Below are positions 21,005 to 24,068 of a DNA stretch of 34,171 nt, piece after piece. This stretch comes from Phycisphaerae bacterium (GTDB taxonomy: Bacteria; Planctomycetota; Phycisphaerae; Phycisphaerales; SM1A02), in the NCBI GenBank assembly GCA_018701395.1, contig JABIWU010000053.1, positions 1 to 34,171 on the forward strand, given 5' to 3'. Both the position numbers and the translations under genes were made by a program. Under the pieces are notes generated by a model that was not told the DNA's origin, made no database searches, and saw only the letters and a list, made by a program, of their open reading frames with translations. Position 1 is the first letter of the stretch. Every line of letters begins with the position of its first letter.

Positions 21005-21121
21005 ATGAAAGTAAAAAGCAGTATTAAACGAAGAACTAAAGATTGCCAAATCGTCATACGAAAAGGCAAACGTTACGTTATCAACAAGAAGAACCCACGA
21101 TTGAAAGCTCGACAGGGCTAA
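21005..21121 (+). CDS. rpmJ: 50S ribosomal protein L36, zinc-ligand-free form
   Basis: 38 aa, starting [17 protein letters not shown] and ending NPRLKARQG; length and plan are those of L36. Of the four zinc ligands of the standard protein (Cys11, Cys14, Cys27, His33) only Cys14 remains; the others are Thr, Asn and Leu. The [13 protein letters not shown] and NPR segments resemble the zinc-independent paralogue YkgO of E. coli. GAGGAAAG at 20991-20998 is the ribosome-binding site. Position between infA and rpsM is the normal one for rpmJ. Confidence 0.93.
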
Positions 21122-21162
21122 CCAGAAAAATCCCGGATAGCCCCCGAGATTGGAGAACAAAT

Positions 21163-21540
21163 ATGCCACGTATTGCAGGTGTAGACATCCCAGAAAACAA
21201 AAAGGTGCGATATTCGCTCCGATATATCTATGGTATTGGTCCAAAGATTGCGGACGATATTTTAGAAGAGTCTAAAATCGATCCTGATACAAAAGCTCGT
21301 GATCTAACAGATGACGAAGTTGGTCGAATTGCTGCTTACCTAGATTCAAACTTGATTGTCGAAGGTACTCTTCGTCGTCAAGTGCAACAAAACATTCAGC
21401 GACTGCGTGACATTCGGTCTTACCGAGGCGAACGTCACCGCAAGGGCTTGCCAACTCGAGGTCAACGAACTCGATGTAATGCGCGGACTCGTAAAGGTCG
21501 TAAGAAAACTGTTGCAGGTAAAAAGGGCGTTAAAGGTTAA
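21163..21540 (+). CDS. rpsM: 30S ribosomal protein S13
   Basis: 125 aa. [19 protein letters not shown] start, [14 protein letters not shown] helix-hairpin motif, and the basic C terminus [16 protein letters not shown]-like block (here [21 protein letters not shown]) that reaches the P-site tRNA. The ATG at 21163 with TGGAGAA (21151-21157) is used; an in-frame ATG-less extension into rpmJ has no similarity to the family. Confidence 0.98.
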
Positions 21541-21636: not shown

Positions 21637-22008
21637 ATGGCTAAGAAAAAATTACGTAAAAATATTGGCAAGGCAATTGTCCATGTCAAAGCAACATTCA
21701 ACAACACGATTGTCACTATGACCGACTTGAGTGGCGAGACCCTTTGTTGGGACTCCGCTGGCACCGTCGGTTTTAAAGGCGCTCGTAAAGCGACACCATT
21801 TGCTGCAGCACGAGCTGCAGAAAAAGTAGCAGTAAAAGGTCGCCGTATGGGTGTAACGGAAGTTGAAATTCGAGTTAAAGGTCCAGGTAGTGGTCGCGAC
21901 TCAGCGATTACAGCACTTGAGCAAAATGGTTTGCGAATTACTGCAGTAGAAGACCATACAGGTGTGCCACATAACGGTTGTCGTCCTAAAAAACAACGCC
22001 GTGTTTAA
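21637..22008 (+). CDS. rpsK: 30S ribosomal protein S11
   Basis: 123 aa (usual about 129). [20 protein letters not shown], the [19 protein letters not shown] block and [13 protein letters not shown] at the end are family hallmarks; the usual TPIPHNG reads TGVPHNG. S11 lines the mRNA exit channel at the platform. AAAGGAT at 21622-21628 is the ribosome-binding site. Between it and rpoA there is no rpsD, only a structured 114-nt spacer. Confidence 0.98.
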
Positions 22009-22026
22009 GTAAGTATTTTGTCGCCC

Positions 22027-22114
22027 CTTAGAGATGGGCGTGATGGGTTTTGACAGCCATCGCGATCCGATTCTAAGTAAGCGTTTATTGGCTAGAAGCC
22101 ACTGTCAAAAGAGG
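22027..22114 (+). promoter_or_regulatory. Predicted pseudoknot leader of rpoA
   Basis: An extended hairpin pairs CTTAGA (22027-22032) with TCTAAG (22072-22077), GGG (22036-22038) with TCC (22066-22068, one G-T), and CGTGATGG (22039-22046) with CCATCGCG (22057-22064, one G-T). Its 10-nt loop contains TTTTGACAG (22048-22056), which is perfectly complementary to CTGTCAAAA (22102-22110). A small hairpin TGGCT-AGA-AGCCA (22089-22101) fills the gap just before that strand. The rpoA Shine-Dalgarno GAGG (22111-22114) follows at once, so the pseudoknot could hide or position the ribosome site. Confidence 0.6.
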
Positions 22115-22122
22115 ATAGAACA

Positions 22123-23274
22123 ATGATGCACGTACGATGGCGAGGATTAGAACTCCCCGCAAGTGTAATTTTAGAAGAACGGTCAGCAACGGACACATTT
22201 GGCCGATTTATAGTTGAGCCATTTGAAAGCGGTTTTGGTACGACGATTGGCAACTCTCTCCGTCGAATTTTGCTCAGCACAATTGAGGGCTCAGCAATTA
22301 CATCCATTCGCGTTAAAGGTGCTGAACATGAATTCTGCACAATTGAAGGTGTCAAGCAAGACATGGTTGACATGGTGTTGAATGTAAAAGGTTTAGTAGT
22401 TGACGTAGATTCCGATGAACCCAAAGTTCTTCGTTTGTCAGCATCTGGCCCTGGCGAAGTTACAGCTGATTTAATTGAAGCAGATTCATCTGTAACAGTT
22501 TATAACCCAGATCATGTAATCGCAACTTTAACAGATAAAATTGATTTTGAAATGGAACTTACAATTGAACGCGGTCGTGGTTATGTGCCTGCTGCGGAAC
22601 AATATGCAACTAAAGACGAACAGGTCATTGGCGATCTTCCAATTGATGCTTCATTTAGTCCAGTTCAACGTGTTCGTTACCGAGTTGAAAACACTCGAGT
22701 TGGCCAACAAACAAACTTTGACCGTTTAATTCTTGACATTTGGACTGATGGCACAATCAGTCCAGAAATGTGCCTAGTTGAATCAGCAAAGATTCTTCGT
22801 AAGCACCTTAACGCTTTCGTTCAGTTTGATTCACTTGGAACAAAAGTTGTAAGCGTTGAAGCCGCCGCTGCTGCCGCAGTTGATGAAGAATTAATTCGAA
22901 AGCTCAACATGCCAATTCTTGACTTAGACCTTACTGTTCGGTCCTCGAACTGTTTGGAACTAGCATCAATTGATCGAGTAGCACAATTGGTTTCCTTGAA
23001 TGATCGCGAACTACTTCGCTTACGAAGTTTCGGACGCACATCTTTACGAGAAATCAAACGAAAACTCGATGACCTTAACTTGACTCTTGGAATGCAATTG
23101 CCTCCAGGCGTTGACGGAACAGTTGAACTTCCACCAATGGAAGAAGGCGACGATTTCTGTGACGATTCAGATGCAGATTTAGACTGCTGTGATGACGAAA
23201 TGTGCAGTGAAGAAGTAGTAAATAATGATAACCCAGGAGACGAAGTCATCGGCTCCGCAGAGGGTAATGAGTAA
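22123..23274 (+). CDS. rpoA: DNA-directed RNA polymerase alpha subunit
   Basis: 383 aa (E. coli 329). The N-terminal dimerisation domain shows EPFESGFGTTIGNSLRRILL at 32-51 and ERGRGYVPA at 149-157. The C-terminal DNA/activator-binding domain spans about 268-324, with VRSSNCLELASI keeping the Arg and Asn that contact the UP element, and GRTSLREIKRKL. A tail from about 330 to 383 is new: highly acidic with four Cys (DDFCDD, LDCCDDEMCSEE). Two ATGs (22123, 22126) are possible starts; GAGG at 22111-22114 serves both. The upstream spacer is strongly structured. Confidence 0.98.
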   Translation: MMHVRWRGLELPASVILEERSATDTFGRFIVEPFESGFGTTIGNSLRRILLSTIEGSAITSIRVKGAEHEFCTIEGVKQDMVDMVLNVKGLVVDVDSDEPKVLRLSASGPGEVTADLIEADSSVTVYNPDHVIATLTDKIDFEMELTIERGRGYVPAAEQYATKDEQVIGDLPIDASFSPVQRVRYRVENTRVGQQTNFDRLILDIWTDGTISPEMCLVESAKILRKHLNAFVQFDSLGTKVVSVEAAAAAAVDEELIRKLNMPILDLDLTVRSSNCLELASIDRVAQLVSLNDRELLRLRSFGRTSLREIKRKLDDLNLTLGMQLPPGVDGTVELPPMEEGDDFCDDSDADLDCCDDEMCSEEVVNNDNPGDEVIGSAEGNE

Positions 23275-23309: not shown

Positions 23310-24068
23310 ATGCGACATAGAATTCATGGAAAACAATTATGTAGAGACAGCGAGCACCGCACTGCGATGCTTCGTAACCTCGCTGCTGGACTTTTTGAAC
23401 ACGGTCAAATTGAAACGACCTTGCCAAAAGCAAAGGCAGTGCAACCATTTGTAGAAAAAATCATTACTATCGCAAGGCGCGGTGGTTTTAATGCTCGCAA
23501 GCGCATTGAGCAAATGATTAATGACCGCAAGATTCATGTCTGGGTTGCAGATCCAAACGTTCCAGATTCAGCAAAGCAAAACGATCACTTTGATCTTCCA
23601 AGCGAAGATTCAATCGAATTTAACCGTTATGGTGAAGTTCGTAAAGCGCCTCGTCTGGTCCAACACATTTTGACAGTTGTTGCTCCTAAATTTGCTGATC
23701 GTGATGGCGGGTATACCAGAATCATCAAAATCGGCAAGCGTCGTCTTGGTGATGGAACAGACTTAGTCGTTTTGCAACTCGTTGGCGAAGAAGAAGGACC
23801 ACAAATCGGTGGAAACGATTCACGTCGAAGAACGCAAAAGCAACGTCGTCGTGATTTCGCTGCAAAAGTTCTTGTTTCAACTGTACCTGAAGTTGAATCT
23901 GCGCCAGAAGCCAAATCTGCACCAGAAGCCGAAGTTGTGCCCGAGGCAGAAACGGCGCCAGATGTTGAAGCAACAGATGTAGAAGTTACAGAGGTTGAAG
24001 CAACAGAAGAATCGGCTCCTGAAACACCAGAAGCAACAACAGATGAAGCTGAAAAGACGGAAGAGTAA
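23310..24068 (+). CDS. rplQ: 50S ribosomal protein L17 with insertion and acidic tail
   Basis: 252 aa, twice the usual 115-130. The core is intact: MRHRIHGKQLCRDSEHRTAM, ETTLPKAKAVQPFVEKIIT, and GGYTRIIKIGKRRLGDG at 133-149. An insertion of about 30-40 residues (roughly 74-112, acidic, DPNVPDSAKQNDHF...) lies in the middle. From about 190 the protein is a low-complexity Glu/Pro/Ala/Thr tail with repeated APEAE units. L17 lies next to the exit tunnel, so the tail could project from the ribosome. Last gene of the operon; a strong terminator begins 25 nt after it. Confidence 0.96.
   Translation: MRHRIHGKQLCRDSEHRTAMLRNLAAGLFEHGQIETTLPKAKAVQPFVEKIITIARRGGFNARKRIEQMINDRKIHVWVADPNVPDSAKQNDHFDLPSEDSIEFNRYGEVRKAPRLVQHILTVVAPKFADRDGGYTRIIKIGKRRLGDGTDLVVLQLVGEEEGPQIGGNDSRRRTQKQRRRDFAAKVLVSTVPEVESAPEAKSAPEAEVVPEAETAPDVEATDVEVTEVEATEESAPETPEATTDEAEKTEE

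Follow-up and report, generated by a model that had tools for sequence, protein, structure and literature searches.

A predicted pseudoknot leader before rpoA in Phycisphaerae

Between rpsK and rpoA of a Phycisphaerae bacterium, we have found an RNA structure that is conserved among relatives with covarying base pairs and is placed right at the ribosome-binding site of rpoA. The stretch of DNA analyzed (34,171 nucleotides; hereafter, the window) encodes there two stems, P1 and P2, and a third helix (the knot) between the loop of P2 and the bases before the Shine-Dalgarno sequence. We propose, with a probability of roughly two in three, that this element is a new cis-acting leader RNA of the alpha operon, namely an H-type pseudoknot that would act on the translation of rpoA or of rpoA and rplQ; in other words, rpoA translation is probably under a switch that has not been described before. 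A new control element, as had been suggested in an earlier note on this DNA, is indeed the best reading of the sequences, because the knot and the stems covary, the element is positioned at the rpoA ribosome-binding site, and no Rfam family matches it.

Layout of the element in the window

A gap of 114 bases separates the rpsK stop (22008) from the rpoA start (22123, perhaps 22126), and the parts of the element within this gap are listed in Table 1. The second ATG (22126) may be the homologous start of rpoA, since in many relatives only one ATG precedes the His codon.

Table 1. Coordinates of the element and its neighboring genes in the window
Feature	Position	Strand	Basis or remark
rpsK, upstream gene	21637..22008	+	stop codon 18 nt 5' of P1
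P1, 5' strand (CUUAGA)	22027..22032	+	sequence; genus alignment
Internal loop, 5' strand (GAU)	22033..22035	+	often GAAG-type in the rest of the family
P2, 5' strand	22036..22046	+	genus alignment
L1, single base between P2 and knot strand	22047..22047	+	sequence
Pseudoknot helix, 5' strand = P2 loop (UUUUGACAG)	22048..22056	+	sequence, covariation, shuffle test
P2, 3' strand	22057..22068	+	sequence, minimum-energy fold, genus alignment
Internal loop, 3' strand (GAU)	22069..22071	+	CCGA-type in many relatives
P1, 3' strand (UCUAAG)	22072..22077	+	sequence, genus alignment
P3, small hairpin immediately 5' of the 3' knot strand	22089..22101	+	sequence
Pseudoknot helix, 3' strand (CUGUCAAAA)	22102..22110	+	sequence, covariation, shuffle test
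rpoA Shine-Dalgarno (GAGG)	22111..22114	+	sequence
rpoA, putative controlled gene	22123..23274	+	homologous start may be 22126
rplQ (L17), gene after rpoA	23310..24068	+	rplQ after rpoA in 20/20 rpoA-side loci

The pairings described in the earlier note were all recovered: its long hairpin (22027-22077) is composed of the outer stem (22027-22032/22072-22077) and P2, its loop bases 22048-22056 are the exact complement of 22102-22110 with GAGG following at 22111-22114, its second hairpin (22089-22101) directly precedes the 3' knot strand, and no base intervenes between 22056 and 22057. The hairpin loop as a whole spans 22047-22056, and A22065 is a bulge in the 3' strand of P2 in the minimum-energy fold. 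Two stretches, AGAUGGG in the region of the 5' internal loop and UCCGA (22066-22070), are invariant in the 12 genus rows. The loop also contains TTGACA (22050-22055), which resembles a -35 box and is not kept in many relatives.

As judged from these letters, the layout is that of an H-type pseudoknot with two stackable helices: the bases of the hairpin loop are predicted, by covariation, to form the knot helix with a single strand farther downstream, and the helices abut with 0 spare bases in the window. P2 and the knot helix would form this pseudoknot, set on P1 and the internal loop. The window knot, with its 9 bp and an L1 of 1 nt, exceeds an ideal H-type helix, and its outer U-A pairs may thus not all be formed at once.

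The pseudoknot pairings in the window are not due to chance; the loop pairing together with P2 scores 41.1 vs 20.5 +/- 3.8 in 100 dinucleotide shuffles, none of which scored as high. The hairpin at 22024-22080 has a folding energy of -24.7 kcal/mol (z of -4.89), and the fold of the whole spacer has a z of -3.08, with 0 out of 200 shuffles as good in either case. In the nested minimum-energy fold, 22102-22106 pairs instead with 22115-22119, placing the Shine-Dalgarno inside the loop of that hairpin. The letters for this competing hairpin are present in the window and one sibling (G004) and absent from two others (G001 and G006), and the competing fold is therefore unconserved even among near siblings.

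Stable hairpins, together with TTGACA in the knot loop, might also be taken as signs of a transcription attenuator or terminator or of an internal promoter, which we regard as very nearly negligible. Neither a terminator-like nor a promoter-like site was found in 21900-22200, where a scan for intrinsic terminators (GC stem plus T run) gave none, and many relatives have CAGCAG-like letters at the place of TTGACA.

Covariation and placement of the knot in relatives

The rpsK gene was located in 12/13 genomes of the genus, 165/181 of the family, 147/151 of the order, and 232/248 of the class. From these loci, 137 rpsK-rpoA spacers were compiled: the window, 11 genus siblings, 77 others of the family, and 48 from other families of the order. 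One incomplete locus (L053) is not among the 89 spacers of the family (12 from the genus, 77 from elsewhere in the family), and matches of model R1 brought in eight of the 48 spacers from the order (L099, L102, L104, L106, L107, L108, L111, and L113).

The knot was examined in a MAFFT alignment (A1) of 29 out of the 89 family spacers, which were picked for a resolved P1 and moderate length and were not fitted to the knot. When RNAalifold was run on A1 with no knot supplied, the knot helix was the only helix obtained, and five of its seven pairs had compensatory changes. In A1, 99.0% of the 202 cells of the knot are paired vs 88.2% in shuffles and 23-53% in slid copies, and 25 cells are changed on both sides; among all 3655 six-column helices, furthermore, the knot ranks first, and it contains the top one of the 5138 column pairs when these are ordered by APC-corrected mutual information. 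In a second alignment (A2), with rows that come from the 70 of 89 sources matched by R1 at E <= 1 and are fitted to the knot helix, 98.8% of 488 cells are paired, and all seven pairs are double-changed (89 such cells). A tree-based count gave 67 double changes from paired to paired over the seven pairs, which is indicative only, as it covers 112/137 spacers in registers chosen by pairing and has no null.

The two stems covary in the genus alignment (A3), where 97.2% of the P1 cells and 90.0% of the P2 cells are paired, with double changes in 5/6 and 7/10 pairs, respectively. In A3 as aligned, only 59.7% of the knot cells are paired; by reading of the rows, this low score is due to a one-column shift of the knot strand in 8/12 rows, caused by an indel in the loop. 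When the 12 genus spacers are taken singly, the helix between the loop and the pre-Shine-Dalgarno bases is found in all of them, 11 at the level of <=5/100 shuffles. The element shares one trait with ribosomal-protein leaders, a covarying conserved structure 5' of genes that include one for a ribosomal protein (rpoA-rplQ).

Over all 137 spacers, the same helix reaches <=5/100 shuffles in 106 (hereafter, strong spacers) and 0/100 in 65. By group, the former level is attained by 11/12 spacers of the genus, 59/77 of the other family members, and 36/48 of the order (28/40 when the eight R1-derived ones are omitted); the 31 spacers that miss it include a genus sibling (G007). The search for the placement of the knot allowed 0-3 nt each for L1 and L2, 5-11 bp for the knot itself, and a knot end at 8-34 nt from the start; since these limits preset the ranges, only the comparison with shuffles is informative. 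On that comparison, no base lies between the knot strand and the 3' strand of P2 in 109/137 spacers (80% vs 41% in shuffles), and knots of at least seven pairs occur in 76% of the 137 spacers vs 22% of the shuffles run through the same search. An L1 of 0-1 nt is not enriched (52% of spacers vs 64% in shuffles).

The end of the knot is also preferentially placed, at 10-15 nt before the start in 70% of the 137 spacers vs 27% in shuffles; among the strong spacers, its 3' end lies 10-15 nt from the rpoA start in 83/106. This placement bears on whether the element serves in RNA processing or stability, as a cleavage site between rpsK and rpoA or as a 3' stabilizer of the upstream message. The intercistronic place and the stable hairpin would suit such a role, but mRNA ends would not need a knot end kept so close before rpoA, and we consider it a remote prospect.

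As for the remaining parts, P1 has at least five pairs in 105/106 strong spacers (a raw count with no shuffle baseline), and a linker hairpin of the P3 type is found in 84/106 vs 49.6 expected from shuffles. The covariation of three stems, which the earlier note had put forward as a check, is borne out for the knot, P1, and P2, and the linker hairpin is enriched in relatives but not universal. The 3' strand of the internal loop contains CGA or CGUGA in 90/105 spacers and the 5' strand contains GAAG in 59/105, both being raw counts with no chance baseline for such short words.

Across the spacers, the length of P1 and P2 is variable and the position of the knot is preferred, which would also be consistent with passive tuning: a ligand-free pseudoknot could hold rpoA initiation at a constant rate, or be a docking site for S1 or the 30S subunit, and so adjust the ratio of alpha to ribosomal proteins. 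S1 is known to have an affinity for pseudoknots, as the review PMC10931766 describes. The internal loop, however, tends to keep its letters while the stems change, and this conservation (again with no chance baseline) points to a site for binding more than to stability alone. Passive tuning is hence considered unlikely, and a leader RNA that binds a ligand is preferred.

Distribution, known systems, and a candidate mechanism

The element is present in several families of the order. When 298 genomes of the class were searched with R1, 34 had a match at E <= 1; 30 of these loci were examined, and 20 were found directly before rpoA and 10 with no alpha-operon gene. Among the 18 R1 matches with E up to 0.02, 16 are before rpoA and one (G392) is elsewhere, the locus of the remaining one (G151:C34) being left out. 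Model R2 matched the window and 32 of the 48 order sources outside the family, and none of the 11 genus siblings or the 19 class sources. Since R2 is blind to all the siblings, the models under-count; the window element itself was not reported in the whole-genome searches with R1, R2, and R3. In 294 genomes of the phylum, R2 gave four matches at E <= 0.1: two in the order before rpoA, and two elsewhere in the phylum with no alpha-operon gene nearby.

At the element, Rfam 15 gave no match at the gathering score in the window and none at E <= 1 in 14 loci; for RF00140 (Alpha_RBS) in particular, nothing exceeded the gathering score in the window and nothing appeared in the 14-locus E-value search. 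The alpha operon of E. coli, too, has an mRNA pseudoknot at one of its ribosome-binding sites, the S4 operator (RF00140; PMC10931766), but this operator is located before rpsM and not before rpoA. The pseudoknots of S15 leaders, above all in mycobacteria (rpsO), are likewise described in that review as lying upstream of the initiation site and being needed for repression, whereas the gene is another one and the likeness is one of described layout. Also alike are the candidate S4 leaders of Bacteroidia and Flavobacteria and the L17 leader of Actino- and Proteobacteria, which are supported by covariation and located in or around rpsD-rpoA-rplQ (Eckert and Weinberg 2020; PMC7247131); according to its main text, however, these S4 leaders are hairpins located before rpsD, and rplQ is the only gene that the L17 leader regulates. 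Neither planctomycet nor pseudoknot is a word used in that main text. The L17 downstream element (RF01708) is a structured RNA at the rplQ end of the operon as well, but is placed 3' of rplQ and occurs in Lactobacillales and Listeria, as given in PMC2864571. In searches of open PMC papers, judged by their titles and abstracts, no report recognizable as describing a leader of rpoA in Planctomycetes was found.

Apart from the element, the window has a sub-threshold match of RF00140 (22.3 bits vs the cut-off of 38) where rpsM starts (21090-21195). Weak matches of this family (E <= 1, none over the cut-off) occur in 78/101 genomes of the order and also in 9/14 control genomes. An Alpha_RBS element at the rpsM start was therefore set aside; given its presence in the controls, the signal probably reflects similarity of the rpsM coding sequence, the position of the hit having been read for the window.

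Translation is the level at which we infer the element to act, presumably with the help of a ligand. The 3' strand of the knot is just upstream of the rpoA Shine-Dalgarno, within the footprint of an initiating 30S subunit, and a formed knot should thus hinder (or trap) the initiation of rpoA, which an opened knot would allow. A ligand bound at the internal loop or the pseudoknot would then repress rpoA and, by coupling, rplQ. In all known cases, according to the main text of PMC7247131, the ligand of a leader is encoded by a gene that the leader regulates; on this analogy, L17 (rplQ) would be the first candidate, a tentative guess that we expect to miss about twice as often as it hits, and RpoA a bolder one. 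Our next guesses after L17 are S4, S11, or RpoA itself.

For Bacilli, whose rpsD has moved, the review PMC10931766 calls the regulation of the alpha-operon ribosomal-protein genes unknown. A conserved pseudoknot on the rpoA start, if true, would provide a directly testable answer in one phylum on the control of the alpha operon and rpoA and would be a further leader to which nothing in Rfam corresponds. The supply of RNA polymerase would then be tied to its own RNA switch, not to the surrounding ribosomal-protein cistrons.

rpsD and the hairpin of the sister families

The absence of rpsD from the place between rpsK and rpoA, remarked on in the earlier note, holds in the window genome, of which the sole S4 match is on another contig (G000:C93; L092) with no alpha-operon neighbors in the stretch read. 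This S4 does not have the CxxC zinc form, which is seen in class relatives with an S4 copy in the operon; Planctomycetes with such stand-alone C- S4 genes were reported as early as 2009 (PMC3087516). In the order, rpsD is found between rpsK and rpoA in 0/48 spacers outside the family, and the gaps within the family are too short to contain it. At the class level, rpsD is in this place in 16/19 loci (a twentieth, L203, is incomplete and outside the count); the three loci without it (L188, L190, and L200) had no R2 match. The knot and the absence of rpsD hence coincide at the order level, where they are confounded with phylogeny.

We then read 36 class-level gaps with rpsD in place. In 14 of these rpsD-rpoA gaps (L199, L202, L204, L206-L212, and L218-L221), the Shine-Dalgarno is directly preceded by a hairpin of two stems, of which the internal loop has the strands NNCAGAK and GAGAAC; all 14 belong to families f19, f23, and f25, and the 22 gaps of other families do not have it. 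This sister hairpin also covaries, with 90.8% of 195 cells paired in 13 rows and 11/15 pairs double-changed. By model R3, it is found in 28/298 class genomes at E <= 0.1, directly before rpoA at 25 loci (f17, f19, f23, f25, and f26) and with no alpha-operon gene at three. Of the 25 loci before rpoA, 24 have rpsD between rpsK and rpoA and one does not. Sister hairpins thus occur beside rpsD, and rpoA can have a structured leader whether rpsD precedes it or not.

For this reason, and because regulation of the E. coli alpha cistron is independent of S4 (review PMC10931766), we did not adopt a takeover from S4 as the default reading; that part of the suggestion in the earlier note, a replacement of S4 control by the knot, is not established. 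A related possibility is that the element is an S4 operator, binding the S4 whose gene has left the operon and keeping part of the alpha operon under its control. S4 does bind a pseudoknot in E. coli (PMC10931766), candidate S4 leaders are located before rpsD-rpoA-rplQ in Bacteroidia and Flavobacteria (PMC7247131), and the order-level coincidence described above would fit. The ligands of known leaders are, however, encoded by the regulated genes according to the latter paper, and rpsD of the window genome is on another contig (G000:C93); moreover, the rpoA leader is structured also in families that have rpsD upstream, and the Rfam families, those of S4 leaders among them, have no match at the element. 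An S4 operator is accordingly judged improbable.

The knot of the window's order and the sister hairpin are alike in place, in their two-stem layout, and in the letters CAGA/GAGAAC. Homology of the two is suggested by this likeness; nonetheless, when 84 sources were searched with R3 at E <= 5, only L206, L208, and L192 (0.0036) were hit and none of the window's order, and common descent is therefore not claimed. It is conceivable, though we would rather doubt it, that rpoA of Phycisphaerae has its own translational operator with an internal-loop core (CAGA opposite GAGAAC or CGA/CGUGA), which would be a plain two-stem hairpin in the sister families and a Shine-Dalgarno-proximal pseudoknot in the window's order, and through which alpha itself or L17 would feed back on the supply of RNA polymerase independently of S4.

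A crude two-strand search of E. coli 16S, 23S, and 5S rRNA with the sister-lineage loop, for an rRNA look-alike, gave scattered partners, none of which was recognized as a helix. As a separate observation, the rpsK-rpoA gaps of L188 (family f8), L280, L282, and L284 contain, before rpoA, a short hairpin in which ACAGATGCTC or CAGATGCTC occurs together with GAGCGATAATCC, and CAGA is again on the 5' side of its internal loop.
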